Shown: piece after piece, positions 25,301-49,740 of the stretch | How positions within the stretch are numbered: position 1 is the stretch's first letter | How the letters are laid out: every line of letters begins with the position of its first letter | IMG/VR virus record: IMGVR_UViG_3300008267_000014 | Location: 23,777-87,776 of that record | DNA from: a virus | Direction: 5' to 3' (one strand) | DNA: 64,000 nt | Made by a program: the position numbers and the translations under genes | Notes under the pieces: generated by a model | Told to the model about the DNA's origin: nothing | The model's input: the letters and a program-made list of their open reading frames with translations, nothing else | Database searches by the model: none

Positions 25301-25744
25301 GCTGGTGGAGTTTCGTCAATCGCTAGTGGTGATACATCATTTATTCATTCAACTTGTTCGGTAGTAACAGGTGACAGAAGTGCTGTTATTGGTGGTCAAA
25401 ATATTACGGGAACAACAAATGATACTGTTTATGTACCTAATTTGAATATTGGTATTATTGGGTCGGGTACAAGTGTTAGTATTTTAGGTGTTGATGGTAG
25501 TGGTTATGTTGTTAGTGGTAATAGTCTAACAAGTAAGTATATTACAAATTTAACATTCACTGGTAGTGAAACTAAAACTATTACCCATAACCTTAATACA
25601 AAATTTGTTCATTGTTCAGTTTGGGACACTAGTACTAATGAATTAATAACGGCACAAGTTGTGAGGGTTACCGGTAGTGAAACTACTTCATTATACATTA
25701 CTATTGCAACTGCGGGTAATTATGATATATTAATAACAGGATAA
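22331..25744 (+). CDS. Tail fibre with about 40 SHAEG (YadA-head-like) repeats
   Basis: An 1137-residue fibre protein. After an N-terminal module (SGGSFTGGTVNGATYFTGGL, then an ANNDSGLDATG linker), it consists of roughly 40 repeats of about 14 residues with consensus GxxSHAEGxxTTAxG. These resemble the left-handed beta-roll repeats of trimeric autotransporter (YadA) heads seen in many phage fibres. Three non-repeat inserts of 60-100 residues interrupt them (around residues 350-440, 610-690 and 815-895); the last two are similar to each other. The repeats end in a cap region (TSFIHSTCSVVTGDRSAVI and GGQNIT) and a C-terminal beta domain (THNLNTKFVHCSVWD). It is paralogous to the gene at 29706. 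Confidence 0.87.
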   Translation: MITLSEVPSGGSFTGGTVNGATYFTGGLTANTFSATTYLNLPENPYWTSGSTWNGTNYPIKANNDSGLDATGDYSVAEGYNTTAVGFGSHVEGSSSTSIGVISHAEGYFTISCGGYSHAEGCLTISCGYTSHSEGSETTAIGFASHAEGEKTKSCGISSHAEGYLTISCGDRSHTEGLCTTSIGDNSHAEGECTITSGNSSHAEGFITTAIGCYSHSEGECTMACGCASHVEGQFSSAIGDFSHAEGWVSKAYGWASHTQNDSTVACGDASHAEGSETTAIGNLSHAEGGDTTAIGDNSHVEGQFTTGCGYASHAEGFGSLAYGCASHAEGQLTIATGQMSHAEGYSTKTGGEILEPFNNNGIFYSASTNPLLYVLYDFSSLISGTRIQVSTINSAFESFVASTYYDSISGMTIITLTSDEYGLDISYTTEGISIFNFQNTIQGDASHAEGQMSVAYGDASHAEGRNTIAYGDYSHSEGITTTSCGCYSHSEGVLTTSLGVASHAEGSRTTACNVHTHSEGACTIADGDGSHSEGIYSTSVGHYSHVEGVGTTSIGYGSHAEGGFYDSIEDTFYEGGTSIGRGSHAEGYKTTSFSTVSHSEGTQTRSGINAYGISAETVTNGFLILNTIYDVSTEFSIGDTVILEDVPLLNILSTVSSVFFNGTLTTIQLSNSGLTGNYKKIANIDNVNPNYADSSIGYGSHAEGAGTKSIAGYSHVEGVNTKTYGGGSHAEGRDTTTIGRASHSEGDCTVATGYSSHAEGGCNNSYGTFSHAEGRCTMACNWMSHSEGDCTTSLGYGSHSEGYSTTSGAKGFSIYNNTVSNGLLQLENNYGDVTSEFNPNNTVTLFDGTYFNPVFTISAVTYDILLSATTIQLYQSWVTSTYLQIVNLNNLDSVYADAPVGDFSHSEGYCTKAIGYQSESQGLCTISFGNTSHSEGQKTTAIGGASHSEGSDTTAFGCSSHAEGLCTMACGNYSHSEGSETIAYCDNSHAGGVSSIASGDTSFIHSTCSVVTGDRSAVIGGQNITGTTNDTVYVPNLNIGIIGSGTSVSILGVDGSGYVVSGNSLTSKYITNLTFTGSETKTITHNLNTKFVHCSVWDTSTNELITAQVVRVTGSETTSLYITIATAGNYDILITG
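22590..25310 (+). repeat. In-frame 42-bp SHAEG repeat array
   Basis: About 40 degenerate copies of a 42-bp unit (core 'agtcatgctgaaggt') encode the SHAEG repeats of the fibre gene. Copies keep the reading frame and vary mainly at third codon positions and in two or three variable residues per unit, so this is a coding repeat under protein selection. It is interrupted by three unique inserts. Confidence 0.85.
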
Positions 25745-29705: not shown

Positions 29706-32700
29706 ATGACTGATTTTAGTTCTCTTGGGGGTGTTGGTATCATTGGGTTTATTTCACCTAAAGGTACAAATGATACTTATGCGGTTATTGACCCTACTTA
29801 TGGTGTCGATGGTTTACGAAATGTTAACACAACTTCTGATTTAGATTTAATAACAACCGAAAGAAGACGTGCGGGTATGATTGTCGGTGTCTCTGGTGGT
29901 ACGACATATTATAAATTAAACCCTGAACCTTGGAACTATAGCTCAACCGATTGGTCAATCTTTTATACAGGGGAAAATGCATTAATTGGTGTTAGTCTTG
30001 TTAATGGGGATTTAATTTTTACAAACGCAACCGGAGGGACGATTACGATTTCGGGTATTAGTTCTAATGAAATTTATTGGACTTCAGGCTCAACTGGAAA
30101 TTTCTCAATTAAGGCTAATAATGATAGTGGGTTAGACGCTATAGGTGATTATTCATTAGCCGAAGGGTATGATACAAAAGCTATTGGTGATTATTCATTT
30201 GCCGGTGGTTCAGGAACTACAGCAACGACAATATCGAGTGTTGCATTAGGTGTTAATAGTATTTCAAATGCTACCAATGTTTTAGAATTAGATACACCGA
30301 TATCAATTTATTATACTAATTTAACGACTGAAGATTATTGTAATGATTATGGACTTTATATGATAGTAATACCAAATACTAATCCGTATATTGATTTTTA
30401 TGATTACATTTTTAATAGACAATCGACATTTATATTAAGTGGTAGTAGTGGTACTAAAATAGTGAACAATACTACAATTAGTGTTGATGATGTTTATGTG
30501 AGTTATGATACATTTTTATTTTTTTATGATTGTGAAAATGGTACTGATTATACAATAATTAGTGGTAATACTTTCATTGATACAACGGTTAGTGGTAGTT
30601 CAGCATTTGCGTTTGGGACTAATTTAAAATCTTGTGGTTCTAATAGTTTTGCTGAAGGTAGATGTAATAGTGCTATTGGTTCATATAGTCATTCTGAAGG
30701 ATATAAGACAACTAGCTTAGGTCTTGGTAGTCATTCTGAAGGTAGTTGTAATATATCTTGTGGACGTTATACTCACTCTGAAGGTGGTTTAACTACTGCT
30801 ATAGGTAGTTATAGTCATGCTGAAGGATATAATACTTCTACTATTGGTGATTATACCCATGCTGAAGGATATAATAGTAAAGCGATTGGGTTATATAGTC
30901 ATGCTGAAGGATATAATACTATCGCTTGTGGTCAATATAGTCATGCTGAAGGATATAATACTATCGCTTGTGGTCAATATAGTCATGCGGAAGGGTATAA
31001 TACTATTACTTATGGTCAATATAGTCATGCTGAAGGGAATTGTTCAAAAGCTTGCGGTTTTGGGTCACATGCTGAAGGTGGTGGTGTTTATTGTAGTGGT
31101 AACTATCTATCAGGAGGTGTTGCGATTGGTCCTGGTAGTCATGCTGAAGGTATATGTACCCTTGCATGTGGTGATGGTAGCCATGCTGAAGGGTATGGTG
31201 CTGGTGGTGTTGGTATTTGTGGTATATGTTATAGAACAATTGCATCAGGTTGTGGGTCACATGCCGAAGGGTTAGTAACAACCTCTATTGGTAGTGGGTC
31301 ACATGCGGAAGGTGGGTTTGCACGATGTATTACCAATTGTGTTGGACAAAGTTATACCGTTATTTATCTTGGTGGTACGGCAATTGGTGGTGGTAGTCAT
31401 GCTGAGGGAGGTAATACTAGAACATCAGGAATTACTAGTCATGCAGAAGGATACGGAAGTACATCATTTGGGTTTGGAGGACATTCAGAAGGAATTCATT
31501 CGACCTCAATCGGAAATGGGTCACATGCTGAAGGTGGGTTTTATATCCCTACAGCGTTTACAGGTGATATTTGTTATATTAGTGGGGGTGTTGCTATAGG
31601 GGATAGTAGTCATGCGGAAGGTATTGATACTAAATCTTGTGGTGTTGCAAGTCATGCTGAAGGTAGTGGTACTACCGCTTATGGTTTTGTTAGTCATTCG
31701 GGTGGTATTAATACAATTGCTTCTGGGAATACATCATTCATCCATTCAACCAATTCTGTTGTAATTGGTGATAGAAGTGTTGTGTTAGGAGGTCAAAATA
31801 TAACAGGTGATACATCAGACACTGTTTATGTGCCTAAATTAAATATCGGTACATTAGGTACAGGGTCTAGTATTAATAATTTAGGTATCGATGTTAATGG
31901 TTTTATTGTGACTGGAACAACTTCAGGTGGAAGTTTTACAGGTGGAACTGTAAATGGTGATACTAATTTTACAGGTGGATTATCAGCTAATACATTTAGT
32001 GCTAGCACATATTTTAATTTACCTGAAAATCCATATTGGACATCAGGTTCAACTTGGAACGGTGCAAATTATCCGATTAAAGCTAATAATGATAGTGGTT
32101 TAGATGCAACTGGTAGTTATTCAGTTGCAGAAGGTTATGGAACATGTACTATTACGTTAGCGATTAGTAGTCATGCTGAGGGACATCGTACCACAACATT
32201 TGCATGTGGTAGTCATTCCGAAGGTAGTTGTACTACGGCTTACGGTTGTTTTAGTCATAGTGAAGGTTTTTGTACTAAATCTTGTGGATGTAATAGTCAT
32301 GCTGAAGGTTGTTTTACAACATCAATAGGTAATAATAGTCATTCTGAAGGTTCGTGTAACATATCTTGTAATAATTCAAGTCACGCTGAAGGTTTTTGTA
32401 CCACATCTTTTTGTTCTTATAGTCATACTGAAGGAACTGATACTAAAACTTATGGTCAATATAGTCATGCTGAAGGACAATCGACAACAACTAGTGGTCA
32501 AAGTAGTCATGCTGAAGGTAATTTAACGACATCAATTGGTAGATATAGTCATGCTGAAGGATATTCCACTAATTCTTGTGGTTGTTATAGTCATGCTGAA
32601 GGTGAATGTTCCGATACTTGTGGTAATTATAGTCATGCTGAAGGAACTATAACCGTTTCATCGGGATGTGGTAGTCATGCTGAAGGTATTTGTACCACAT

Positions 32701-33254
32701 CTATAGGTAAACACAGTCATTCTGAGGGTAATAATACTAAATCATGCGGATGTGGTAGCCATGCTGAAGGTTATTATACAACTTCAATTGGTTTTTATAG
32801 TCATGCCGAAGGTTGTGGAACTACCTCTTTTACTGATTATAGTCACGCTGAAGGTATTTGTACGGTATCATTATCATTAGGTAGTCACTCAGAAGGGTTT
32901 TGTACTACTGCTGGAAATTGTTTTTCACATTCGGAAGGAATTTGTACTTTGACAATAGGATGTGCTAGTCATTCAGGTGGTATTAATACGATAGCTTCAG
33001 GTGACACGTCATTTATCCACTCAACAAATTCAGTTATAACCGGTAATAGAAGTGTTATTTTAGGAGGTCAAAATATAACAGGTAGTACTGATGATACAGT
33101 ATATGTCCCTGATTTAGTAATTAGAAAATCTCAAATAGTTCCTACAGGTAGTACCCATAATATTGGTGAAAATGGGTCTGTTACTTGGGATAATGATAAT
33201 TTCTATTGGAAGGCTAATGGTTTATGGTTAAAAATTAGTGGAATAACTTTTTAA
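29706..33254 (+). CDS. Second, internally duplicated SHAEG-repeat tail fibre
   Basis: An 1182-residue paralogue of the fibre at 22331. It contains two complete SHAEG blocks of about 20 repeats each (about residues 140-690 and 800-1110), each ending with a cap region (NTSFIHSTNSVVIGDRSV, GGQNIT). The second block is preceded by the same linker that opens the 22331 protein (SGGSFTGGTVNGDTNFTGGL), still highly similar at the DNA level. The N-terminus (FSSLGGVGIIGFISPKGTND) is unique and probably attaches it to the virion. The C-terminus shares the WDNDNFYWKANGLWLKISG module with the 25761 fibre. It looks like a fusion product of two fibre genes by recombination. Confidence 0.86.
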   Translation: MTDFSSLGGVGIIGFISPKGTNDTYAVIDPTYGVDGLRNVNTTSDLDLITTERRRAGMIVGVSGGTTYYKLNPEPWNYSSTDWSIFYTGENALIGVSLVNGDLIFTNATGGTITISGISSNEIYWTSGSTGNFSIKANNDSGLDAIGDYSLAEGYDTKAIGDYSFAGGSGTTATTISSVALGVNSISNATNVLELDTPISIYYTNLTTEDYCNDYGLYMIVIPNTNPYIDFYDYIFNRQSTFILSGSSGTKIVNNTTISVDDVYVSYDTFLFFYDCENGTDYTIISGNTFIDTTVSGSSAFAFGTNLKSCGSNSFAEGRCNSAIGSYSHSEGYKTTSLGLGSHSEGSCNISCGRYTHSEGGLTTAIGSYSHAEGYNTSTIGDYTHAEGYNSKAIGLYSHAEGYNTIACGQYSHAEGYNTIACGQYSHAEGYNTITYGQYSHAEGNCSKACGFGSHAEGGGVYCSGNYLSGGVAIGPGSHAEGICTLACGDGSHAEGYGAGGVGICGICYRTIASGCGSHAEGLVTTSIGSGSHAEGGFARCITNCVGQSYTVIYLGGTAIGGGSHAEGGNTRTSGITSHAEGYGSTSFGFGGHSEGIHSTSIGNGSHAEGGFYIPTAFTGDICYISGGVAIGDSSHAEGIDTKSCGVASHAEGSGTTAYGFVSHSGGINTIASGNTSFIHSTNSVVIGDRSVVLGGQNITGDTSDTVYVPKLNIGTLGTGSSINNLGIDVNGFIVTGTTSGGSFTGGTVNGDTNFTGGLSANTFSASTYFNLPENPYWTSGSTWNGANYPIKANNDSGLDATGSYSVAEGYGTCTITLAISSHAEGHRTTTFACGSHSEGSCTTAYGCFSHSEGFCTKSCGCNSHAEGCFTTSIGNNSHSEGSCNISCNNSSHAEGFCTTSFCSYSHTEGTDTKTYGQYSHAEGQSTTTSGQSSHAEGNLTTSIGRYSHAEGYSTNSCGCYSHAEGECSDTCGNYSHAEGTITVSSGCGSHAEGICTTSIGKHSHSEGNNTKSCGCGSHAEGYYTTSIGFYSHAEGCGTTSFTDYSHAEGICTVSLSLGSHSEGFCTTAGNCFSHSEGICTLTIGCASHSGGINTIASGDTSFIHSTNSVITGNRSVILGGQNITGSTDDTVYVPDLVIRKSQIVPTGSTHNIGENGSVTWDNDNFYWKANGLWLKISGITF
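30897..30980 (+). repeat. Perfect 42-bp tandem duplication within the SHAEG array
   Basis: Two identical 42-bp units (30897-30938 and 30939-30980) encode YSHAEGYNTIACGQ-type repeats, followed by a third, slightly diverged copy. Perfect identity in an otherwise degenerate array points to a recent slippage or unequal-exchange event. Confidence 0.9.
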
Positions 33255-33299: not shown

Positions 33300-35255
33300 A
33301 TGACATCTATCCAAATTACCGAAATATCAGGATTAACATATCCTTATGATATCTATGTTTGTGATGTTTTTGGTAATCAATGTTTATTAGTGGCCACTAT
33401 TAATAGTGATGTACCACCAGTAAATACTTTAGTATTACCACCACAATTTAATACCGCTCCTGCAGTTGGTGTTAAAATAGTTTCACATGATTGTGTTAAA
33501 TTTAACATAGTTTATTGTTATTTGGTTTATACTAGAACGCCTACGCCAACACCTACAGTTACACCAACGATTACACCAACGAACACTCTAACACCTACTA
33601 ACACTGAAACACCTACTCAAACTCCTACAAATACCGTTACACCAACTAATACTGAAACACCTACTGTTACGCCAACTCCAACTAACACTGAAACGCCTAC
33701 TCAGACCCCAACTAATACGATTACACCGACTAATACTGTCACACCTACTAATACTGAAACGCCGACGCAAACTCCGACTAATACACTAACACCTACAAAT
33801 ACCGTAACTCCCACAAACACTATTACACCTACAAATACTGAAACACCAACGGTTACTCCGACACCAACAAATACTATCACGCCAACTAATACAATTACAC
33901 CAACTGTTACACAAACACCAACAAATACTCTTACGCCTACTAACACTGAAACCCCTACAGTTACCCCAACTAATACTCTTACGCCAACAAATACCGAAAC
34001 TCCTACTCAAACACCTACAAACACCATTACGCCAACAAATACTGAAACGCCGACTCAAACTCCTACAAATACTATAACACCTACTAATACTGAAACGCCG
34101 ACGCAAACTCCGACTAATACGGTCACACCGACTAATACTGAAACACCTACACAAACCCCAACTAATACGGTTACTCCGACAAATACTATAACACCAACTA
34201 ATACTGAAACTCCGACTCAAACACCTACTAATACGGCAACACCTACTGTTACACAAACACCTACTAATACTGAAACTCCAACACAAACACCTACCAATAC
34301 TATTACTCCGACAAATACCGAAACTCCAACACAAACTCCGACAAATACGGTAACCCCAACAAATACTGAAACTCCAACACAAACACCTACCAATACTGTT
34401 ACACCAACTAACACCGAAACGCCTACTCAGACCCCTACCAATACTTTAACACCGACTAATACCGAGACACCAACACAAACTCCTACTAATACAATTACAC
34501 CTACCAACACCGAAACGCCTACACAAACACCAACTAATACAGTCACACCAACTAATACGGAGACCCCAACTCAAACCCCTACTAATACGATTACACCTAC
34601 TAATACTGAAACACCTACTCAAACTCCAACCAATACGATAACACCAACTAACACCGAAACGCCTACTCAGACCCCGACCAATACTCAAACACCGACTAAT
34701 ACGATTACACCTACAAATACTGAAACCCCTACCGTTACTCCAACTAATACTGTTACGCCGACCAATACAGAAACTCCAACACAGACCCCTACTAATACCC
34801 AAACTCCAACTAACACAATCACACCAACAAATACTGAAACGCCTACTCAGACCCCAACTAACACAGTTACACCTACTAATACTTTAACCCCAACTAACAC
34901 TCAAACTCCTACTCAAACGCCTACAAATACTATAACACCTACTAACACTGAAACCCCTACACAGACACCTACCAACACGATAACACCTACTAATACTGAA
35001 ACACCAACGCAAACACCGACTAATACCGAAACACCAACGCAAACGCCAACAAATACGATTACACCTACGAATAGTGAGACACCTACACAAACGCCAACTA
35101 ATACGGCAACGCCAACATATACCCCATCAATAACACCATCGTATACACCATCGGCAACACCAACTTTAACACCATCACCAATAGTGGGTGATTTCTTATT
35201 ACTTGAAACCGGTGATTATTTATTATTAGAAACAGGTGATAAGATTATATTATAA
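33300..35255 (+). CDS. Thr/Pro-repeat stalk protein with small N-terminal beta domain
   Basis: A 651-residue protein in three parts. Residues 1-79 form a small domain ([19 protein letters not shown], then [12 protein letters not shown]) also found as the stand-alone protein at 45672. Residues about 80-627 are an extremely regular Thr/Pro/Asn array (units such as [10 protein letters not shown] and TPTNTIT). The C-terminus is a Leu-rich repeat tail ([18 protein letters not shown]). Such PT arrays behave as extended rigid stalks and are common O-glycosylation substrates; whether that happens here is unknown. It lies at the end of the + fibre block with a terminator after it. The antisense open frames through the array are by-products of the repeat. 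Confidence 0.8.
33537..35180 (+). repeat. Tandem 18-bp-type repeat encoding TPTNT(E/I/V/L) units
   Basis: About 1.6 kb of short tandem repeats based on 'acacctactaatactgaa' and variants codes the Thr/Pro stalk. Codons for Thr and Pro vary freely while the protein pattern stays constant, which shows selection on the protein. It would be prone to length change. Confidence 0.88.
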
Positions 35256-35310: not shown

Positions 35311-35910
35311 TTACCAAATACCTTGTTGTTTCATATAACCTAAAACACAACAATAAGCATCTGATTGGTCAAAATTTTCTTTTTTAAGTGTATTATTTTT
35401 AGTGTATAACCATTGTATTTGTGGTTCTTTTTTTGCGACTTTTTCCCAAATTATCATTTTTTTATCGATGTCTTTAGGTAATCCTCCGAATAACACATGT
35501 TTACCTTTATCATTAACTTGGACTAATTCGGGAAATGCATATTTTCTTGAATTGTAAGTTGAAATGAATTTAGGTACAATTCCTAAAGTATCATAAATTT
35601 CTTTACAAAGAAATGAGTTAAATCTTAATAATGTTTGAACTGTGTTAATGTTATTTGAATTTAACAAAGGTTCTTCAATTATTACGTTAACGATACCCAT
35701 ACCTTGATATTGGATTAATTTTTTCTTAAAAATTTCAGCCTTTAAAAGTAATTCGGTGATTTTACAATCTTGTTTAGGTTTAGGTTGTGGTGAAATATGA
35801 CATAATTCTAAAAGTTCTTTATCGATAATATCAAATAATGCCCAACCAATTGTTCTGGTTGAGATGTCTAATCCTAATACTTTTGGTTTTTCTTTTAATG
35901 GTTTTTTCAT
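35311..35910 (-). CDS. RuvC-like (RNase H fold) nuclease, probable Holliday junction resolvase
   Basis: A 199-residue protein with the RuvC/RNase H-fold acidic residues. D15 lies in VLGLDISTRTIGWALF (first strand with the catalytic Asp and following Thr/Gly turn), E79/E80 in NVIIEEPLL (end of a strand), and D181/D184 in FDQSDAYCCVLGYM (final helix). This order and spacing fit a RuvC-type endonuclease that resolves recombination or replication junctions before packaging, the role T4 gp49 has with a different fold. It is the last gene of the - strand structural operon, 3 bp after the tail protein at 35914, so it is probably expressed late. No T4-like endonuclease VII is seen in the window. Confidence 0.83.
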   Translation of the reverse strand: MKKPLKEKPKVLGLDISTRTIGWALFDIIDKELLELCHISPQPKPKQDCKITELLLKAEIFKKKLIQYQGMGIVNVIIEEPLLNSNNINTVQTLLRFNSFLCKEIYDTLGIVPKFISTYNSRKYAFPELVQVNDKGKHVLFGGLPKDIDKKMIIWEKVAKKEPQIQWLYTKNNTLKKENFDQSDAYCCVLGYMKQQGIW

Positions 35911-35913
35911 AAA

Positions 35914-38304
35914 TTAAAAATCGAATTTTACGATAAATTGCTGAATACCTTGTCTAAGAGTTGGAGATTGCAGCTTAGATATAATCATAAGATTTTTATT
36001 TGAGTCGTAAAGACTAATTTCTGTAATATATGATTTTGTACCTTTAGTCCAAGTAGGATTAGATGAAGTTAAAAATTCAGATTTTGATAAGTTTAATTTA
36101 TATTTCATTTCATAAATTGTTGCTTGTATATCAGTTTCTAAATTACCATAGAAATAATATTCATCTCCAAAATTAAGAGTTTGACCTGTATCACCAATCG
36201 TTGATAATGGTATATAATCATTTAAATCATAAAAATCGGCGGCATCATAAGCGTCTTTTGTAATAACAAATGTTGTACCTGTTAATGTATTTTGTGTTAG
36301 ATAACCATTAACTGTTGTCGCACTTACTTGGTCTGTAACGTCAATAATTCTCCATTCATCAGATAGCGGTCTTGTATCACCTGATACTTTTTGACAGATA
36401 AGTTCAATTTTTTCGGCAAAAAAACCTTCTTTAAATGTATTATCGTAATCAGTCAAACAAGGGAAATTACCCCCAAAACTAACACCTACATTATCTGAAT
36501 TCGAAGTACTACAATCATTAGGTCCAAAAATATTAACATAATAATTACAATGTATTGAATTGGTAAAAGCGCTTGTATTTGTGAATCTGTACGTTACGTA
36601 CATGTTTTCACTACCGCCTGATAATACACCTATATTACTACCATTACTTGAACCACATGTGTTAGGTGATACTAAATTTAGTTTAGGGGCTGGTAATGTC
36701 CAATTACGATTAGATTTATATGACATTGCGGCAACGATTTCTTCATCGTCTATAATAATGATATGGTCGTCAGGAAAAACTTTACCAATTCTACTTGGTA
36801 ATCCATTAGACACTACATGTGTATCCCATAGATTAAAATATCTTAAACCAGGTGTGTTCATGTCCTCATTTTTAGTTGATTTTAAATATTCGACTTGAAA
36901 TAAATCAACATCATCAAAATTAGGTGGGTCAACCCAAAAAGTTTCACCATAACAACATTCAGGGTTTTTATGCCACATTAACCAAGGAATGTGTAGTTTG
37001 AAATTTCTAGCTTCACCTGTTGAACTTGTTGGTGATGATGGGTCAAATGGTTCTAATGCGAATTTTTCACCATAGAATGAATCTATAGTTTGATTCGTAT
37101 AATGTATCACAGCAATTGCTTTTTGTTTTTCAGGTGTTACTGTAACTTTTTGATTAAATGAGTCATAAAAATAAACAGAATCAGTATCTGTTTGACCACT
37201 AGAATTCATGTAACCAAAATATTCTTTAGCACCAATATAATTTATTGAACCAAAACCTGTGTAATCAACATTAATTGATGATACGATACCTGCAGGACTT
37301 TCAGACCAAGGAATATTCATATTCCAAATCTTAACGTTAAACTCGTCTTGATTACATACCGATTCAAAATTAATAACATCATCACTCCAATGATTAAGAG
37401 GTGTGACGCTATCATATAAATCAGTCATAGTATTAGGATATACAATTACCCTAGCATAACAACTTGTGAATGATATTGATGAATAATCAGGGACTGGTCT
37501 ATCTAATGTATAACTATCATTACATATATCAACAATTCGATATGTTAACATAGGGTAACAAGAACTCATTGTCATTGAACATTCTGTTGAAACAACAGGT
37601 GTTGGGTTAGGACAATATGTTGCCGAAGGGGTTGGTGTTGGTGTTGGTGATGAACAAGGTGTACCACTAACAGGTGTTGCTGATGGTGTGGGTGTCGGTG
37701 TTGAATATTGAGAACTTGTTGGTGTAGGTGTTGGTAAATTAATACAACTACAATTATTATCGCCTAATTTATCATAGTAAATTGTGATAAAATCGCCAAT
37801 TGATGGTGAACTATAATTGGTTGGATTACAATTTAAATTGATTACTTTTATTGTTGTACCACCTGTTAATGTTGACATGTCAATAACGTAATTAGAGTTA
37901 ACAACATAATCATTTCCGGTTAGAGTACTCCAATTAGTTGGTAATGATGTAGTATCACCGGTAAAGAAACCTCTCATAGCCGCTGTATTATAAATTGGGC
38001 TAACTACTGAATCCATATATGGAATACCGTAAGTGTTTCCAACAGTACCATCAACATAATATGGGTATTTTACGTTACCTTTATTAGATTGTGGTACACC
38101 ACTACTATTTTGAGAATTAAATGATGGTGTTAATACCATACTGTTAGATTGTTGGTAGGTTGAGGGTAAATTATTATAATTTATCTCACTATCCCCAATT
38201 TGAAAGTAACTAATATTAAAAGTACCTTGAGATAATTTTTGTCTTGCGGTATCGGTTAATTTTGTATTTACTAACGCTGATGTATTTTTTAATATAAATG
38301 ACAT
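35914..38304 (-). CDS. Tail/baseplate appendage protein with PT linkers
   Basis: A 796-residue virion-type protein. The N-terminus (KNTSALVNTKLTDTARQKLS, then FNISYFQIGDSEINY) resembles phage fibre or baseplate proteins that start with 'LT..G...........IGD'. The C-terminus (YITEISLYDSNKNLMIISKL, ending in VKFDF) matches a tail-protein ending seen in such proteins, so the two ends probably form one domain split by a long insert. Within it are two short PT-rich linkers (PTPTPTSSQYSTPTPTP and SPTPTPTPSATYCPNPTPV) and cysteines. No promoter motif in the correct orientation is visible in the 43-bp gap upstream; it is probably transcribed with the genes before it. Confidence 0.72.
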   Translation of the reverse strand: MSFILKNTSALVNTKLTDTARQKLSQGTFNISYFQIGDSEINYNNLPSTYQQSNSMVLTPSFNSQNSSGVPQSNKGNVKYPYYVDGTVGNTYGIPYMDSVVSPIYNTAAMRGFFTGDTTSLPTNWSTLTGNDYVVNSNYVIDMSTLTGGTTIKVINLNCNPTNYSSPSIGDFITIYYDKLGDNNCSCINLPTPTPTSSQYSTPTPTPSATPVSGTPCSSPTPTPTPSATYCPNPTPVVSTECSMTMSSCYPMLTYRIVDICNDSYTLDRPVPDYSSISFTSCYARVIVYPNTMTDLYDSVTPLNHWSDDVINFESVCNQDEFNVKIWNMNIPWSESPAGIVSSINVDYTGFGSINYIGAKEYFGYMNSSGQTDTDSVYFYDSFNQKVTVTPEKQKAIAVIHYTNQTIDSFYGEKFALEPFDPSSPTSSTGEARNFKLHIPWLMWHKNPECCYGETFWVDPPNFDDVDLFQVEYLKSTKNEDMNTPGLRYFNLWDTHVVSNGLPSRIGKVFPDDHIIIIDDEEIVAAMSYKSNRNWTLPAPKLNLVSPNTCGSSNGSNIGVLSGGSENMYVTYRFTNTSAFTNSIHCNYYVNIFGPNDCSTSNSDNVGVSFGGNFPCLTDYDNTFKEGFFAEKIELICQKVSGDTRPLSDEWRIIDVTDQVSATTVNGYLTQNTLTGTTFVITKDAYDAADFYDLNDYIPLSTIGDTGQTLNFGDEYYFYGNLETDIQATIYEMKYKLNLSKSEFLTSSNPTWTKGTKSYITEISLYDSNKNLMIISKLQSPTLRQGIQQFIVKFDF

Positions 38305-39950: not shown

Positions 39951-42146
39951 CTATATAATATAATATGGGTTAACATATGTTGCAACACCACCTTCGAAAG
40001 TGTATGCTAAATTCCAATAATATAATGGCATACCGTTAGAGACCTCTTTTCCGAATATTTTAAAATCATCGTAATTTGATGGTGCGTTATGTAAAACGAC
40101 ATAAAATGAAGAATGATATTGGTTATAAGTTGTCCCATCATCATCTCTTGGGTATAATGTTGGTAAATCAGGACAAACAATTGAAACTAAATTAGGTATC
40201 GATTCATTATTACCGAAAGAATCTGAATAAAACGGATATGTTGTAACTTGTTGTTTAATTATTGAACTTTTTTTTGTTGTTATTTGAGCATCGGGGATTA
40301 AATTAGGATAATCAACAAAATTAACACCTTTAATATAATTAAAAGGCTCTTCACATTTAGTACCAATTGACCAAGAATATGAAAATGGTGAAGTATAAGT
40401 ATTATTGTTAACTGAACTAACTATAGTATCGATAGTATTATAACAAGTTCCTGAACTACATACATCAGTGCCACCTGTAAATTCAATATGTCTTACCATA
40501 TTAGGCATTGTAATTTGAATTGTATATGTTCCACCTGTTGATGAATACGTTATATTAGAATGTTGTGATATTGATATTTGACGATATTGTGTATTATCGC
40601 CGCATAAATCACTACCTGTTATATTACTTGGAAAAACAAAACCCCATTCTTTGTAATAACCAACTTCTGTGTCAGGTACACTTGTTGTAAAAAACGACCT
40701 AATATATTCTAATTTATCATGATAAAAATTATAATCATTGATATTATCAAATTGTAATGTGATAATACCTGTACCACCAACACCTGTATTGGTTTTCGTA
40801 AGGGTTATATTACCACCATCTTGAGGAGCACAAGAGTTACCGACACCAAATGGTGTTATTACGTATTCACAACCTCTGACATTATATTTGAATTCTAAAG
40901 AAACTGAACTGGTGTTAAAATCAAAAGTCGAATTAGTATAATCAACAAGTGTTTGTGGTGGTGACCCACTACATCCGCTAACTTGAAACGATATTGTTTT
41001 AGCACTACATACTATTGGTGAATTTATAATTGACGATTCTATAATCTTCAATGACTCGTTTAAGTAATCATTATTACATGAGTAACAATCTATAGTATCT
41101 AAACATGCAAAATTTAAATACCAGTTAGTTTGAGAGTTACCTGAATTCGGTATGACTTCAATTAACAATCTATCATTAGCCGACCTTGTTAATCCTGTTA
41201 ACGTTACTATTTTACGAAAAGGTCCCCAATAATTTGTATTTGGAATATCATATGGTGTCCAAACGTTACCAGGGTATGGGTATAAACCAGAACCCATGTT
41301 CCACCAATCTAATACAATTGGTCTTTGATACGCATCACCATAATATGTTAGTTTAAATTCATCTGTTATTGTTACAGCATCAAAACTCCATGCAAAAAAG
41401 TTAGTATTGCCCGATAATTTAAAGGTAGCTGCTACCCCTTTTGCCGGTGCGTTAAATCCGTTTGCAACAAATGATAATTGGTGTGTATATTTTTCTGTTG
41501 GATAATTACCATTATCACAAGTGTATGCGGATATTGATACTTGAATACCTGATAGACAATCTAAATAAGCGTCTATCTCACCAGGCGTTTCATTATTATA
41601 TGAAAATTTTTTCCCATCGTAATATAGATTGCTAATAATTGGGAAATAATAACCTTCTTCTAATGGTATTGCACTATCATTTAAAATTGGATGTGTGAAT
41701 GAATAACCTGAAAATTCAGAGCCATAACCTGATGTAAATGATAAAGGTAATGAATTTGAAAAAACTGATGTTTCACTAGGTCCGTACCAATTAATTTTAT
41801 AACTACTGATAGGTGTTTCACAACTACCGGTTAAGTTACCGACACTTAAACGACCAACTGTTGATGCTGAATATAAATCAAAATCAAATGAGCAAATTTC
41901 ACATATGTCGTTATCTTGGATTGGTATTGTACAATAACAACCTGTGTTGGTATCTCTAAGTCTAATACTGGTTGTACCATCAGGGACATCAACTCTATAA
42001 GGACAATTAGGTTCTGTTACTGAATCTAAAGTTATTTGACTTTCTATTGGATTAATAGTATCTAAATCTGAATACACAATAAACGGACCTGTTAGTCCAG
42101 GATATGAGTTTAGATTAGTTAAACATATTTGAATTCTTTTTGACAT
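39951..42146 (-). CDS. Virion adhesin-like protein, unknown family
   Basis: A 731-residue protein. The N-terminal 80 residues (CLTNLNSYPGLTGPFIVYSD, then CPYRVDVPDGTTSIRLRDT) appear distantly related to the small domain at the start of the 33300 protein and the 45672 protein: G-PF-IY-D, a PY.F..P strand, and a (K/R)L-D/N-GC end. The rest is beta-rich with many Cys pairs (CSYNNDYLNE-type regions, CSGSPPQT, CSSGTCYN) and no helical or membrane segment. It starts 12 bp after the DUF285-repeat gene in the same operon. No enzyme motif is recognised. A virion surface role is inferred from context only. Confidence 0.66.
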   Translation of the reverse strand: MSKRIQICLTNLNSYPGLTGPFIVYSDLDTINPIESQITLDSVTEPNCPYRVDVPDGTTSIRLRDTNTGCYCTIPIQDNDICEICSFDFDLYSASTVGRLSVGNLTGSCETPISSYKINWYGPSETSVFSNSLPLSFTSGYGSEFSGYSFTHPILNDSAIPLEEGYYFPIISNLYYDGKKFSYNNETPGEIDAYLDCLSGIQVSISAYTCDNGNYPTEKYTHQLSFVANGFNAPAKGVAATFKLSGNTNFFAWSFDAVTITDEFKLTYYGDAYQRPIVLDWWNMGSGLYPYPGNVWTPYDIPNTNYWGPFRKIVTLTGLTRSANDRLLIEVIPNSGNSQTNWYLNFACLDTIDCYSCNNDYLNESLKIIESSIINSPIVCSAKTISFQVSGCSGSPPQTLVDYTNSTFDFNTSSVSLEFKYNVRGCEYVITPFGVGNSCAPQDGGNITLTKTNTGVGGTGIITLQFDNINDYNFYHDKLEYIRSFFTTSVPDTEVGYYKEWGFVFPSNITGSDLCGDNTQYRQISISQHSNITYSSTGGTYTIQITMPNMVRHIEFTGGTDVCSSGTCYNTIDTIVSSVNNNTYTSPFSYSWSIGTKCEEPFNYIKGVNFVDYPNLIPDAQITTKKSSIIKQQVTTYPFYSDSFGNNESIPNLVSIVCPDLPTLYPRDDDGTTYNQYHSSFYVVLHNAPSNYDDFKIFGKEVSNGMPLYYWNLAYTFEGGVATYVNPYYII

Positions 42147-42158
42147 AAATTATTAATT

Positions 42159-45100
42159 TTATAAACCACCTAAATCAGTTATGGTCCAATTATAAGTGTT
42201 AGTTAAAATATCTCTTGAAGGACCTGAGTTTGAGATAAAATAATATGAATCACCACCATTAAATACAACATCGTTTCTAACTGATTGAGATGCCCATCCA
42301 TTTAATAATGAATCATATGAAAAATACGATAATGGAACATTTAAAAACATATTTTCAGCATATACTAAATCAGTTACATCCCAACCACCAATATTTTGGT
42401 CGAATGATAATGCATTTGCGAACATGTTATATGTATTAGTTACTTTCCAACTTGGTATTGGTTGATTAAATGACGTAGCACCTGAGAACATATTTGCTGT
42501 ACTAATACCGGTTACAATCCAGTTACCAATCGAAGGACTACCACCATTATTGAAAGATGTTGCGTTTACAAACATTTCAGATAATGAGTAATCTGTATTA
42601 TAAGCGTTATATATATTACTAATATCCCAGTCACCTATATTTTGATTAAATGATGTTGCGTTTCTAAACATTCCGTAGAAACCATTGGAATTACTGGTTA
42701 TCCAATTATTTAAAGGTTGGTTAAATGATGTTGCATAAGCGAACACTTCCTCCATATTATAAACTTGACTAACGTCCCAATTATTTATTGAAGAACTACC
42801 TCCGTTATTAAAAGAAGTTGCTCCTGAAAACATACGATACATATTTGTTAAACCACTTACATTCCAATCACCTAAATCTTGATTGAAATTCGTAGCACCA
42901 TTGAACATGTGTGACATCTGAGTTACATTACTAACGTCCCAATTATTTAAAGGTTGATTGAATGATGTTGCGTTAGCAAACATTGAGTCCAAATAATAAA
43001 TATTACTTGTATTCCACCCATTTAATGGTTGGTTGAAATTTGTTGCGTTAGCGAACATATAACCGATATTTGTTGCTCCGGTAATATTCCAATTATTTAA
43101 TGGTTGGTTGAAATTTGTTGCGTTATAGAACATTGCACCAAAAGTTTCTACATTACTAACGTCCCAATTATTTATTGAAGGGCTTCCGCCATTATTAAAT
43201 GATGTCGCATTACGAAACAAACCGTTCATTTCAATAACATTACTGACATTTAAATTACCAATATCTTGATTAAATGATGTTGCACTATAAAACATATTTG
43301 TAATGATAGTTCCTGGTTTAAATACCCATTGTTCAAAATTATTAATAGTTGTTAATGAAATACAATATTGGAATAAACTTTCTAAATAATATGATATATT
43401 TGTTGGAACATCCGTAACCGAAGATAAATCTAAATTAACGTATGCATAAAAATCATACTCGTTTAAATCTATGTCACCCCATTTAGTTATTGATATTGTT
43501 TTTCTTGACCCATTATAATTATAAAACCTAAATCTACCATCGATTTTAATAGTATAAACACCTGTTGATGTGTAGGTGTGTTTATGTGAGAAAAAACTAC
43601 CGGCTCCGATAGTCATTACAGTACCATCACCCCAATCAATCGTTGACCCTGAGTATGAATATATCGTAATTGCAAATTGTCTATTACCTAATTGGTAATC
43701 AGGTATTGTGGTATCTATAATCATCGTAAATGGATTAATCATTGGTACCGGTGTTGGATATGGTGTTGTAGTCGGTGTTGGTGTTACAGAAGTTGATGTT
43801 GGTGTTTGTGTTGGTAAATCAATATATGTAAATCCGGTAATACCGCAATCATCGTGAGGTGTTGCAAATGGAGTCCTTGTTTGAGTTACCGTTGGTGTAA
43901 CTGTTGGTGTCATTGTGTTGGTTGGAGATAACGTTGGTGTAATAGTCGGTGTTTGAGTAACGGTTGGTGTTGCGGTTTTTGTCGGCCTAGGTGTTGGTGT
44001 GTTAGTTTTTGTAACAGTTGGTGTTATGGTTGGTGTTGCGGTGTTCGTTTGTGTAGGAGTTGGCGTAATATAAATTGACCCTGATGATGATAATGTGGGT
44101 GTATTTGAAGATGTTATTGTGTTTGTAGGTGTGATAGTTGGTGTTATTGTGTTTGTAGGTGTAAAAGTTGGTGTTATTGTGTTTGTAGGTGTAAAAGTTG
44201 GTGTAGGTGTTCTTGTTGGTTCACATATCACGCAATTTATAGAAATTGAATTTAATATGATTGTATTCGCACCTGTAATGTCAGTAGTGGTTCCTAAATA
44301 AGTAACACATTTAGTATTACCATCAACATCGGCGTTAAATACCATACCAATCTCAATTGAACCACCACCTGGTACTATTAAAACATCATTAGTTGTATAT
44401 AGTATATTAGGGTCATTACAATCTGAGAACTTTTTACTAATAGGGCAGTTAATGTAATCATTAATAGTATTAAAAGTAACATCACCTGAGAAATTAAAAG
44501 GTCTATCAATAATACCTGATTGTGTTGGAGTAACTGTTGGCGTTGCTGTAGGTGTTGGTGTATATTTAACAACATTAGCATCGATTATAATACTATTACA
44601 TACATTAGTCGATGTTGGTGTTGGTGTCGGTGTAGGTGTTGATGATGTTGTAGGTGTTGGTGTCGTACAATCAACGGGCGAACAATCAAAAAATGTATTA
44701 AAATCTAAAACTGAACAATTATTAGTTGGTGTTGGAGTTGGTGTAGGACAAATCCCTACCGATAAGTATTCATCAAATAAATCAGGACAATTACTATAGC
44801 ATGGTGATTTACCGGCCAATAAACAGTCACCACCCAAAGTATTCGATAAACACCATTGGTTAGACGTGTATTTATAATAAAGGTAATAACCATTAGTACT
44901 ACCAGTCCAATAAGGTGCTGTATAATACGTTCCCGCTAATGTAAAATTATCGTTATATATATCAAACCCTGTATTAGTTAAACAATAAAATTCTTCAGTA
45001 CATGGTTCAGGACAATCACATAAAATATCACTTTCATTTATAATACCATATTCAGATTCTGTAGTTGGGTAACTTGATGAACAAACAACTACAGATGTTG

Positions 45101-45608
45101 AGGCTGAAACTGTTATAGGGGATATCGTTCCATAACAACAAGGTGTAAATGTGAAATCAATAGATTCCGTTTCGTTATTATTAGTTAATGTAAATTCTTT
45201 ACAATAACAACAAATTGGGTCTTCTTCAACTATACTAATATTAACATACTCACCAAAAGTACCGTTAGGATATCTAGTACTACAAATAGTAATACTATCA
45301 CCAAAACCTATTGTTATTGGTGATGTTAATTCTTCATCACAACAAGGTTCAAAATTAATTATTGCATCTGTTGTTTCTGAGTTATTATTAATGTTATATC
45401 TATAACAGTAACATGGCGGTGTTTCAGTTAATTCAATTAAGAAATCACTACCTATTTCACCAACAGGTGCTGAATTTGAAAGAATAGTAAATGACCCTTC
45501 AGGTGATACTGATAATGGCGAACTTAATTCTTCCGTACAACAAGGTTCAAACGATATCGTTGATAATTCCGCTCCTTGATTAGTTATCGAATATGCTTTA
45601 CAACTCAT
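42159..45608 (-). CDS. Giant multidomain adhesin: Cys-rich repeats, PT linkers, PKD, twelve BspA/DUF285 repeats
   Basis: An 1149-residue mosaic. Residues 1-200 hold three tandem Cys-rich repeats of about 60 residues (FEPCCTEELSSPLSV, FEPCCDEELTSPITI, FTPCCYGTISPITV, each with a CYC or CCYC motif). A small domain with YWTGSTNGYYLYYKYTSN follows, then PT linkers and a PT-rich stalk at about residues 480-620. A PKD-like domain lies at about 640-690 (STIDWGDGTVMTIG, then HKHTYTSTGVYTIKI). Twelve 22-33-residue BspA/DUF285 repeats occupy about 775-1105 (consensus FNQPLNNWDVSNV..M..MF..ATS). DUF285 repeats are typical of mycoplasma and bacterial surface proteins. This is a strong receptor-binding candidate. 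It heads the operon behind a putative late promoter. Confidence 0.82.
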   Translation of the reverse strand: MSCKAYSITNQGAELSTISFEPCCTEELSSPLSVSPEGSFTILSNSAPVGEIGSDFLIELTETPPCYCYRYNINNNSETTDAIINFEPCCDEELTSPITIGFGDSITICSTRYPNGTFGEYVNISIVEEDPICCYCKEFTLTNNNETESIDFTFTPCCYGTISPITVSASTSVVVCSSSYPTTESEYGIINESDILCDCPEPCTEEFYCLTNTGFDIYNDNFTLAGTYYTAPYWTGSTNGYYLYYKYTSNQWCLSNTLGGDCLLAGKSPCYSNCPDLFDEYLSVGICPTPTPTPTNNCSVLDFNTFFDCSPVDCTTPTPTTSSTPTPTPTPTSTNVCNSIIIDANVVKYTPTPTATPTVTPTQSGIIDRPFNFSGDVTFNTINDYINCPISKKFSDCNDPNILYTTNDVLIVPGGGSIEIGMVFNADVDGNTKCVTYLGTTTDITGANTIILNSISINCVICEPTRTPTPTFTPTNTITPTFTPTNTITPTITPTNTITSSNTPTLSSSGSIYITPTPTQTNTATPTITPTVTKTNTPTPRPTKTATPTVTQTPTITPTLSPTNTMTPTVTPTVTQTRTPFATPHDDCGITGFTYIDLPTQTPTSTSVTPTPTTTPYPTPVPMINPFTMIIDTTIPDYQLGNRQFAITIYSYSGSTIDWGDGTVMTIGAGSFFSHKHTYTSTGVYTIKIDGRFRFYNYNGSRKTISITKWGDIDLNEYDFYAYVNLDLSSVTDVPTNISYYLESLFQYCISLTTINNFEQWVFKPGTIITNMFYSATSFNQDIGNLNVSNVIEMNGLFRNATSFNNGGSPSINNWDVSNVETFGAMFYNATNFNQPLNNWNITGATNIGYMFANATNFNQPLNGWNTSNIYYLDSMFANATSFNQPLNNWDVSNVTQMSHMFNGATNFNQDLGDWNVSGLTNMYRMFSGATSFNNGGSSSINNWDVSQVYNMEEVFAYATSFNQPLNNWITSNSNGFYGMFRNATSFNQNIGDWDISNIYNAYNTDYSLSEMFVNATSFNNGGSPSIGNWIVTGISTANMFSGATSFNQPIPSWKVTNTYNMFANALSFDQNIGGWDVTDLVYAENMFLNVPLSYFSYDSLLNGWASQSVRNDVVFNGGDSYYFISNSGPSRDILTNTYNWTITDLGGL
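42310..43290 (-). repeat. DUF285/BspA-type repeat array (coding)
   Basis: Twelve tandem repeats of about 75-100 bp encode the leucine-rich-like units. Two variants alternate: FNQPLNNW and FNNGGSPSINNW types. The near-identical repetition of the FNNGGSPSINNW variant at three places suggests segmental duplication. Confidence 0.8.
44111..44200 (-). repeat. 30-bp tandem repeat in the PT stalk
   Basis: Three 30-bp units (44111-44140, 44141-44170, 44171-44200), the last two identical, encode [10 protein letters not shown]-type segments of the 1149-residue adhesin. They are an internal, recent expansion of the stalk. Confidence 0.85.
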
Positions 45609-45671: not shown

Positions 45672-45887
45672 TTAAACGGATAATGTGTCGTATTTGACAC
45701 AACCATTGTTATCAACTATTTTTAAATTAAATTCATTTTGACTATTCATTATAGTTGGAACATCGAATGAATATGGAAATGTTGAAATAGTATCAATATA
45801 AACACACACTGTTGAAAGATTATCACAAAGATAAATGTTAAAAGGTGTTGTCCCTGTGATGTTATTTATTGTTATATTTGTTGGCAT
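45672..45887 (-). CDS. Small stand-alone beta-domain protein (71 residues)
   Basis: A 71-residue protein that matches, over its whole length, the N-terminal domain of the Thr/Pro-stalk protein at 33300 (ITGTTPFNIYLCDNLSTVC against [20 protein letters not shown] in aligned parts, and LKIVDNNGCVKYD against [12 protein letters not shown]). I choose the ATG at 45887; an upstream ATG at 45923 would extend the protein through the putative late promoter and adds residues with no counterpart in the paralogue. It is the first gene of the - strand structural block. Function unknown; possibly an attachment or capping module for virion appendages. Confidence 0.68.
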   Translation of the reverse strand: MPTNITINNITGTTPFNIYLCDNLSTVCVYIDTISTFPYSFDVPTIMNSQNEFNLKIVDNNGCVKYDTLSV

Positions 45888-45902
45888 TATATAGTTTTTA
45901 AC

Positions 45903-45910
45903 TATAAATA
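45903..45910 (-). promoter_or_regulatory. TATTTATA putative late promoter element (- strand)
   Basis: On the - strand TATTTATA, followed by GTTAAAA, lies 15 bp upstream of the chosen start at 45887. It sits in the 85-bp divergent gap with the primase gene. Confidence 0.5.
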
Positions 45911-45972
45911 TAAACTTAGTCAAAAACTAGTGAAGGTTGATTTATTAGTTAATTTATTATATTATTAAAAAT

Positions 45973-46872
45973 ATGTCAGATGATAGTGAAATTTTAGTGG
46001 ATTTATTACGTGATGTATTAGGTGATGAACATTTACACTATGAACATAAGGGGCAAATTTCATTCAATTGTCCCGAATGTGATGAGGATAGGAATAAAGG
46101 TAATTTAGAAGTTAATTATTTTTCACATTTATATAAATGTTGGAGTTGTTCCGAGGTTAATAATACTCACGGTCCTTTAGGTAAATTATTCGATAAATAC
46201 GGTACAAAACAACAAAAAAAAGTGTATGAAGTTATTAGACCAGAACAATATACCCCAAAAGAAAAACAGGTTAAGAAATTAAAATTACCTGATAATTTTA
46301 AATACTTTAAAGAGGTTAGTAATGCTTACCCTATTAGACGTACAGCATATAACTATTTAATTAGTCGAGGTATTACTGATAAAATTATCGATAAATATAA
46401 AATAGGTTTTTGTGATAGTGGAAGTCATTCTGGTAGAATCGTAGTTCCTTCATTTAACGAAATGGGTGTACTGAACTATTATATTGCTAGAAGTTGGTAT
46501 CCGAACACTAAAGCAAAATATAAAAACCCTGAAACACCGAAGGATGAAATCATTTTCAATGAAAGTTTAATAAATTGGAATGAAGATATTTTTTTAGTTG
46601 AAGGTGTTTTTGATTCGTTTTTCTTACCTAATAGTATTCCTATGTTAGGTAAACATATGTCAGAGTTATTGTTTACTAGTTTATATAATAGAGCTATGGG
46701 TAATATAATAATCGCTTTAGATGGTGATGCGTTCGATAACGGAGTTAAATTATATCATGAATTAAATGGTGGTGGTTTGTATGGTAAAATAAAAATTTTG
46801 AAATTACCTATAGATAAAGATGTTTGTGATTTAAAGGGTGAAATAAATGAATTTTATTATAATATGAGATGA
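45973..46872 (+). CDS. DNA primase (zinc finger plus TOPRIM)
   Basis: A 299-residue primase that would lay down RNA primers for lagging-strand synthesis. The N-terminal zinc-binding domain has CPEC (33-36) and CWSC (56-59) in the frame FNCPECDEDR and YKCWSCSE, followed by the typical HGPLGKLF stretch. A TOPRIM core follows: the conserved Glu in IFLVEGVFDSFF (about residue 210), then ALDGDAFDNG (D250/D252). There is no helicase domain, so a separate replicative helicase must lie elsewhere. It heads a replication/recombination operon and overlaps the next gene by 4 bp (ATGA). A weak upstream TTG / TATATTAT pair (18-bp spacing) may be its promoter. Confidence 0.87.
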   Translation: MSDDSEILVDLLRDVLGDEHLHYEHKGQISFNCPECDEDRNKGNLEVNYFSHLYKCWSCSEVNNTHGPLGKLFDKYGTKQQKKVYEVIRPEQYTPKEKQVKKLKLPDNFKYFKEVSNAYPIRRTAYNYLISRGITDKIIDKYKIGFCDSGSHSGRIVVPSFNEMGVLNYYIARSWYPNTKAKYKNPETPKDEIIFNESLINWNEDIFLVEGVFDSFFLPNSIPMLGKHMSELLFTSLYNRAMGNIIIALDGDAFDNGVKLYHELNGGGLYGKIKILKLPIDKDVCDLKGEINEFYYNMR

Positions 46873-48098: not shown

Positions 48099-48875
48099 AT
48101 GATAACTAAATTAGTTCATTTTTCGGATTTACATCTTAGAATGTATAAAGACCATAAATTGTATCGTGATATTTTAACTGATATGATAAATCAATTTAGA
48201 GCTCTTAAACCGGATAGAATTGTTTTTACGGGAGATTTAGTACATTCTAAAAACCAAGTTACACCTGAATTAATTGAAATGGTTAGTTGGATATTGACAG
48301 AATGTTCAAACATTTCAAAGACTGTGATTATCCCCGGTAACCATGATTTTATACCTAACTTAGAGAGGTTAGATACTTTAACACCTATCATTAATTCGTT
48401 AAATAATCCTAATATCTTTTATTTTAAAGATAGAGGTGTTTACGAAGATGAAAACGTGTCTTGGTGTGTTTACTCACAATTTCAAGGTAATATACCACCT
48501 GATATAACAGATGCCAAGGGTATTAAAGTTGGATTATTTCATGGACCTATTCAAGGAATGAAGACTGAATTAGGATTTGATTTTGGAGAGGAAGCATATC
48601 CTGTTACTAAATTTGATGGTTTAGATGTTGTATTGTGTGGTGATATCCATTTACGACAAGAATTTAAGATACAAAATGGTAAGGGGTATATGATTGGTTC
48701 TACAATTTCTCAAAATTTTTCTGAAAAAATTGATAGACATGGTTATGGTATTTTAGATTTAACAACTATGAAATATGATTATGTTGATTTACATAATCCA
48801 AAACCATACATGTCATTTAGAATTACATCATATGATGATATTATTAAGGAAAGTGAAAAATTGGTAAATGTTTAA
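48099..48875 (+). CDS. Recombination endonuclease subunit gp47 (SbcD/Mre11-like)
   Basis: A 258-residue metallophosphoesterase with all Mre11/SbcD blocks in order: HFSDLHL (7-13), FTGDLVHS (43-50), IIPGNHDF (77-84), GLFHGP (145-150) and CGDIHLR (180-186). These bind two Mn ions and give dsDNA exonuclease / ssDNA endonuclease activity. With gp46 it should form the MR complex that resects DNA ends for recombination-dependent replication, as in T4. It is somewhat shorter than bacterial SbcD and lacks a capping extension. The start of the next gene overlaps its last 8 bases, so translation is coupled, although gp46 follows only after three intervening genes. Confidence 0.92.
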   Translation: MITKLVHFSDLHLRMYKDHKLYRDILTDMINQFRALKPDRIVFTGDLVHSKNQVTPELIEMVSWILTECSNISKTVIIPGNHDFIPNLERLDTLTPIINSLNNPNIFYFKDRGVYEDENVSWCVYSQFQGNIPPDITDAKGIKVGLFHGPIQGMKTELGFDFGEEAYPVTKFDGLDVVLCGDIHLRQEFKIQNGKGYMIGSTISQNFSEKIDRHGYGILDLTTMKYDYVDLHNPKPYMSFRITSYDDIIKESEKLVNV

Positions 48876-49740
48876 AATTAATGATTCATATAATAAGGAC
48901 ATCCTCAGTTTTTGTAAAACTAATAATATTGAGGATGTTCAATTATTTGTTAATAAATGTTTTAAACAAGGTTTTGATGTTAAAAAATATGGTTTGTTAG
49001 GTGGTGATGTTGAAGAAATTGTAAAAGAAATCGAAGTTATAAAAGAAGTTGAAGTAATTAAAGAGGTTTTTATTGAAAAAGAAATCCCTGTAGAAATTAT
49101 TAAAGAAATTATAGTCGAAAAACCTGTTGAAGTTATTAAAGAAATTATAGTCGAAAAGACTATACCTGTCGAGACTATTAAGGAGGTAATTGTTGAAAAG
49201 ACTATACCTGTTGAGATTATTAAGGAAGTTATAGTTGAAAAGGTTACTGAAGTTTTATCACCACCAATTGAAGTTAAAGTTATTGAATATATTGATAGAG
49301 AAATTAAAGTTGAAGTCCCTATTGAAAAGATAATTTATGTATCAGGTGAAACTCATACAATTATTAATGAAAAAATAATTGAAGTTCCTGTTGAAAAAAT
49401 TGTGACAAACACTATTGAGAAAATAATTGAAATCCCTGTTGAAAAGATTATTACAAATACTATTGAAAAAATTGTTGAAGTTCCTGTAGAAAAAATTGTA
49501 ATAAATACTGTTGAAAAAATTGTTGAAGTTGAAAAAATTGTTGAAGTTATTAAGGAAGTTGATAATGCGAATCACAAACAAAAAATGTTAGAAAATACTT
49601 TACAAAAAGTGAGGGAAGAATTGATTATAAAAAATAAAAAAATAGAAGAATTAGAAGAAATAAATAAAAAATTAGAATCTTTAAATTCACAACAAACTGC
49701 GGTTTATTTAAAAGGGTCTAATCTAAGTCAAAAAATGTAA
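48868..49740 (+). CDS. Repetitive V/I-E-K protein of unknown function
   Basis: A 290-residue protein. Residues 1-45 form a small helical domain (SFCKTNNIEDVQLFVNKCFK, then GFDVKKYGLLG). Residues about 50-230 are a degenerate repeat of 12-14 residues built on IIVEKTIPVE(T/I)IKE and later on VEKIVTNTIEKI, giving alternating hydrophobic and charged residues over a long stretch. The last 60 residues are a predicted coiled coil (KMLENTLQKVREELIIKN, then ELEEINKKLESLN). The composition is extreme: Glu, Lys, Ile and Val dominate. It overlaps gp47 by 8 bp and lies inside the gp47-gp46 interval, so it probably accompanies the recombination machinery. I know no function for it. Confidence 0.72.
   Translation: MFKINDSYNKDILSFCKTNNIEDVQLFVNKCFKQGFDVKKYGLLGGDVEEIVKEIEVIKEVEVIKEVFIEKEIPVEIIKEIIVEKPVEVIKEIIVEKTIPVETIKEVIVEKTIPVEIIKEVIVEKVTEVLSPPIEVKVIEYIDREIKVEVPIEKIIYVSGETHTIINEKIIEVPVEKIVTNTIEKIIEIPVEKIITNTIEKIVEVPVEKIVINTVEKIVEVEKIVEVIKEVDNANHKQKMLENTLQKVREELIIKNKKIEELEEINKKLESLNSQQTAVYLKGSNLSQKM

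Follow-up and report, generated by a model that had tools for sequence, protein, structure and literature searches.

In T4-like and other phages, tail fibres exchange their tips, so that a conserved base carries a variable receptor-binding end and the junctions are mosaic. The adhesins studied in this work share these three traits; they differ in that the junction is the Thr/Pro stalk of one protein and in that the tips appear wholly unrelated in sequence.

The tip of the adhesin analysed here belongs with the DUF285, BspA-like or PARCEL proteins (PF03382, TIGR02167), with which it shares 25-residue repeats, a PKD-like N-cap and a C-cap, bacterial and archaeal examples being about 31-45% identical. 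Unlike BspA-like bacterial surface proteins, the phage adhesin has neither signal peptide nor sorting tail and is fused to an anchor and a Thr/Pro stalk; clear palindromes were not seen in its DNA.

Tips of the DUF285 type have been met in other phages before. Using tblastn, it was matched in 109 of 50,697 phage records, including jumbo phages with many copies; PHROGs includes families matching the repeat tract, and a structure model of residues 622-1149 gave 59 matches at E<=1e-3 among viral models, most of them to BspA-like proteins from phages and giant viruses. Tips of 25-38% identity, along with model matches, were found in Vibrio phages pir03 and sm033, Sphingomonas phage PAU, Klebsiella phage N1M2, Aeromonas phages D3/LAh10, Pseudomonas phage OBP and Synechococcus phages, all of which are without the Cys-rich repeats and the anchor (LEC/MID) described below. 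The annotation of pir03 includes a DUF285 gene, named PARCEL (PMC7765460). Purified particles of Aureococcus anophagefferens virus (AaV) contain two DUF285 proteins (PMC7507832), but this is a eukaryotic giant virus with another architecture, and the likeness is an analogy only. An earlier note on this DNA had called the use of DUF285 repeats as a phage receptor-binding tip unusual; these records show that DUF285 itself is no rarity in phages. On its use as a phage tip, the literature yielded nothing beyond annotations and the AaV proteome. What is notable is rather the place of the gene, in a variable island, and its build, with a tip that looks like an exchangeable tool.

The window, i.e. 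the whole stretch of 64,000 nucleotides analysed, comes from a virus record of 87,776 bases, which encodes a baseplate wedge protein, a ribonucleotide reductase, a primase, a recombination nuclease and a sigma factor. Relatives of the wedge protein were found in at least 596 viral stretches (the best 80 of these being 78-87% identical), and the virus belongs to an abundant, mostly uncultured T4-like clade. By wedge protein the nearest isolates are distant, namely the Flavobacterium immuto phages and Microcystis phage Mel-JY01 (25-26%). The Flavobacterium phages vB_FspM_immuto share the order baseplate wedge - spike - primase, with identities of 26% for the wedge and 34% for the primase, but between spike and primase they have only short genes and no Thr/Pro adhesins. 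A 744-aa protein of the tail region (18044-20278) carries four stretches of SprB repeats and marginally matches Por_Secre_tail; such domains typify surface proteins of Bacteroidota. The best bacterial match of the adhesin tip is from Flavobacteriales, tip homologues being spread over many phyla. Because of the SprB-like repeats, the immuto link and this best match, the host is probably a member of the Bacteroidota, as far as sequence comparison tells.

The adhesin ORF (42159-45608, minus strand, ATG start) encodes 1149 aa, comprising from N- to C-terminus three Cys-rich repeats, a small conserved domain, Thr/Pro tracts, a PKD-like domain and DUF285 units:

45411..45608, minus strand: Cys-rich repeat 1 (residues 1-66; three-copy alignment and HMM)
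45207..45410, minus strand: Cys-rich repeat 2 (residues 67-134; three-copy alignment and HMM)
45018..45206, minus strand: Cys-rich repeat 3 (residues 135-197; three-copy alignment and HMM)
44739..45017, minus strand: anchor part 1 (LEC), the small conserved WCLS...GKSPC...CPDL domain (residues 198-290; 146 viral stretches)
44544..44738, minus strand: short Thr/Pro tracts with a small Cys box (residues 291-355; conserved in A2)
44214..44543, minus strand: anchor part 2 (MID) (residues 356-465; comparison of relatives)
43746..44213, minus strand: long Thr/Pro stalk (residues 466-621; in relatives the corresponding stalk bounds the exchange)
43329..43745, minus strand: PKD-like beta-sandwich with N-cap, WGDG...HTY...TKWGDI (residues 622-760; model and bacterial alignment)
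42303..43328, minus strand: DUF285/PARCEL repeat tract of 12-13 units (residues 761-1102; PF03382, TIGR02167)
42162..42302, minus strand: C-terminal cap, NGW...NWTITDLGG (residues 1103-1149; found in bacterial and phage DUF285 proteins too; predicted secondary structure)

The earlier note had described a mosaic adhesin ending in twelve DUF285 repeats and had suggested a profile search and a structure prediction, both of which agree with it. PF03382 (DUF285) matched in four stretches at E=9.8e-90 (296.8 bits for a cut-off of 25) and TIGR02167 (PARCEL repeat) at 54.3 bits (cut-off 30). Twelve units are readable over residues 784 to 1102 (22-36 aa, mostly 25, some 29, one 36); one degenerate unit precedes them, and with a loose pattern the count is 13. 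For residues 622-1149 the model is confident (pLDDT 85, pTM 0.81) and consists of a beta-sandwich followed by a short-strand solenoid with a capped C-terminus; related solved structures were found neither by sequence nor, for this model, by fold at E<=0.001. The three Cys-rich repeats also named in that note do align with one another. Its Thr/Pro stalk is present, not as a single one but as several tracts, the longest at about residues 466-621. As for its PKD domain, the adhesin gave no Pfam PKD match even at E<=1; the modelled region is a confident beta-sandwich (pLDDT about 90) with the WGDG...HTY motif, and the homologous stretch of one relative (L271) gave a sub-threshold PKD_4 match (E 2.4e-5), so that PKD-like is a fair label, by motif and predicted fold only. 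The term lectin-like, applied to residues ~203-290, is a guess; profile searches returned no family match for this part, and modelling of the anchor gave a poor result (pLDDT 46).

The same note had read good conservation of the repeats as a sign of recent expansion. Over the aligned core, adjacent units share only 48-57% of their residues and 52-73% of their nucleotides, and where their residues agree, codons are shared at 0.576, near the level of synonymous shuffles (0.510 +/- 0.035); this divergence and near-random sharing of synonymous codons speak against a recent expansion. Tandem Repeats Finder reported only 3.3 copies with 67% match. The units at 813 and 838 have all ten codons in common, which may point to duplication or conversion on a local scale.

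Over its whole length, from the PKD-like start to the C-cap, the tip has homologues among exported surface proteins of bacteria, and it probably sticks to a cell. This homology would also suit a protein that, like its bacterial homologues, is displayed on or outside the host cell, having been made there during infection and serving superinfection exclusion or cell aggregation. Of the 23 bacterial homologues, most have a signal-like hydrophobic segment at the start and many extend beyond the cap, whereas the phage adhesin has no N-terminal hydrophobic segment (maximum hydropathy 0.58 vs mostly 2-3), shows neither export signal nor sorting tail, and stops at the C-terminal cap, all of which makes a host-surface role quite improbable.

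The adhesin gene sits in a variable island with a RuvC-like resolvase on one side and the primase on the other. The island was compared among sixteen related contigs around these two genes, and in most of them the anchor adjoins a small conserved protein beside the primase. Its borders and main neighbours in the window are:

35311..35910, minus strand: RuvC-like resolvase, island border (65-82% in 18 relatives)
35914..38304, minus strand: 796-aa conserved fibre-like protein, N-terminus LKNTSALVNTKLTDTARQKLSQG, island flank (C-terminal part 45-71% in relatives)
39951..42146, minus strand: 731-aa neighbour (28-33% relatives in the same island)
45672..45923, minus strand: small protein by the adhesin, about 71 aa from the likelier ATG (48-65% beside the primase in most relatives)
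45973..46872, plus strand: primase, other island border (57-77% in 15 relatives; 34% to the immuto DNA primase)

A direct scan returned no close relatives of the 731-aa neighbour, its 28-33% relatives lying in the islands of other records. No counterpart of the fibre-like protein was found among known phages, and its C-terminus weakly resembles immuto protein 165, which is encoded among tail genes. In G011 (L142:4442-10030) the fibre-like protein reaches 1862 aa, about 1000 residues longer than that of its relatives, and its conserved C-terminal part was matched as two separate pieces. By-eye inspection upstream of the island genes gave no clear shared late-promoter motif. Several island proteins bear Thr/Pro tracts; adjoining the island, a 651-aa protein (33300-35255, plus strand) consists mostly of Thr/Pro repeats (99 TPT/PTP motifs). 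Two large paralogous tail-spike-like proteins (22331-25744 and 29706-33254), related to the immuto tail spike, have YadA-head-like repeats (PF05658 in the first) and flank two minus-strand genes, one of them methyltransferase-like.

The shared anchor with its many exchangeable tips, absent from the earlier note, is the more telling feature of this locus. The anchor (residues ~198-465) matches no Pfam family; its first part is 46-60% identical at the syntenic locus of relatives, and a scan with the anchor alignment found it in 146 environmental viral stretches. None of the 50,697 phage records has the Cys-rich repeats or the LEC/MID anchor, and no known phage of that collection carries the N-terminal 456 residues. 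A close relative of the window's own adhesin was likewise not found in searches, which may omit near-identical records. In G026 (L138:6021-6602) the anchor gene is shortened to 193 aa by a stop in its middle part.

Tips were surveyed in 71 anchor proteins that could be split automatically, 10 further ones not being split by the script. They fell into about 15 clusters, i.e. DUF285 plus about 14 other types, these counts being approximate since the DUF285 cluster also takes in other tips via a common Cys-rich module. Three of the 71 end in a DUF285 tip, namely those of the window, of L271 and of G001 (also numbered L294), and in about 20 fewer than 60 residues follow the stalk, i.e. there is almost no tip. 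Two Fib_succ_major tips were found on the same anchor (L252:5998-7569 and L273:5998-7746). At the island, the adhesin ends in DUF285 in the window and G001, in an NNTISGDI-type solenoid in G015, G024 and G038, in other ways in G036, G040, G030, G021 and G043, and with almost no tip in G007. Tips differ in 14 of the 34 complete pairs whose anchors are at least 80% identical, several of these pairs not being independent events. The anchor proteins show a conserved base with an exchanged distal domain, as phage receptor-binding proteins and virion adhesins would.

The exchange is best seen in the trio G001, G015 and G024, whose anchors are 78-98% identical and whose flanking genes share 88-94% DNA identity; G001 has a tip unrelated to those of G015 and G024, the break lying within the Thr/Pro stalk. 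Between G001 and G015, the primase and the fibre-like gene are 91.6% and 93.7% identical in DNA, and protein identity falls from 92-98% in the anchor to 74% in the stalk and, in aligned 60-residue blocks, to 15-30% in the tip, which, judged by sequence, is the level of unrelated proteins. The G015 and G024 tips are 67-88% identical and evolve faster as proteins: their dN/dS is 0.64 overall (0.36-1.39 per 100 codons) vs 0.09-0.21 for the anchor and 0.03-0.08 for the primase and fibre gene; within that pair the anchor has 0.21, next to 0.05-0.08 for core genes. Since synonymous divergence is 0.069 in the first 100 tip codons vs 0.286 in the anchor, it looks as if this tip was transferred after the lineages had parted. 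A raised dN/dS was not observed in DUF285 tips as such, whose single close pair (G039/G043) is almost identical in the tip; in this pair the part before the tip differs at 45% of synonymous sites, and junctions therefore also lie inside that DUF285 gene. In G001, G015 and G024 the next gene bears DUF285, with 8 to 16 units (loose pattern) after a near-constant start of 72 residues.

All relatives are metagenome contigs, any single one of which could be a chimeric assembly. An artefact is unlikely because sequence matching its relatives lies on either side of the G001 swap and because DUF285 follows the anchor in three separate contigs. The contigs of G036 and G037 (L129:10159-11833; L145 contig end) both stop within a repeat that codes for Thr/Pro; this suggests that assembly tends to fail at repeats of this kind and that the tip counts are too low.

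In a set of 50 related records, which includes many fragments, DUF285 occurs anywhere in 8. It sits in different island genes in different relatives; this scatter, together with the horizontal transfer proposed for the PARCEL repeat family (PMC2996958), would agree with a selfish coding element spreading without selected function in the phage. We regard this as highly improbable: the long ORFs stay open, the N- and C-caps are complete, and the tip occupies one fixed place behind the stalk where unrelated domains stand elsewhere. Two candidate devices for moving or varying the repeats were set aside. For PARCEL palindromes, the DNA coding the units held no inverted repeats and no dyads above shuffles, and a consensus-level dyad test was mixed, with p=0.007 against synonymous shuffles but 0.127 against codon-column permutation, by a method other than the MEME of PMC2996958. 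For a diversity-generating retroelement, a PF00078 reverse transcriptase was found in none of 11 records, which are possibly incomplete.

Taken together, it is likely that the protein is a virion adhesin, either receptor-binding or first-contact, with an exchangeable tip, in a T4-like phage probably infecting Bacteroidota. Such a role fits the tip exchange, the absent export signals and the neighbourhood; the location in the particle, the binding end, the receptor and the host are inferred. The N-terminal repeats and anchor would attach the adhesin to the particle, the Thr/Pro tracts would serve as spacer, and the PKD-like domain and DUF285 solenoid would form the binding tip, an end common to bacterial surface-protein genes; unrelated tips would replace one another by recombination in the Thr/Pro-coding region.

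An accessory decoration of the virion, binding non-receptor targets (extracellular polysaccharide, particles or other cells) and changing its tip without any change of host range, seems unlikely to us. It would agree with the separate tail-spike-like proteins, with the Thr/Pro tracts of several island proteins and with the relatives that have almost no tip, some of these viruses thus being able to do without one. Under receptor binding, however, one would equally expect tips to be exchanged and to evolve faster as proteins. A further proposal is put forward tentatively, as possible yet well short of probable: the island might be a dedicated tip-exchange locus, in which an undescribed anchor family lies beside a phage RuvC-like resolvase, the Thr/Pro-coding repeats act as recombination joint, and genes for bacterial surface proteins supply the tips (DUF285, Fib_succ_major and other solenoids), which change host range.

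These adhesins offer a natural protein series, one base with many ends, in viruses common in metagenomes and hardly cultured. Tip type can be tested as a host predictor and the stalk repeats as an exchange joint, and DUF285, a domain of unknown function, would gain a testable cell-binding role. Elsewhere in the window, a 290-aa protein (48868-49740) has a long repetitive EVIKEV/EKIVEV tract, and relatives have genes of similar start and position.
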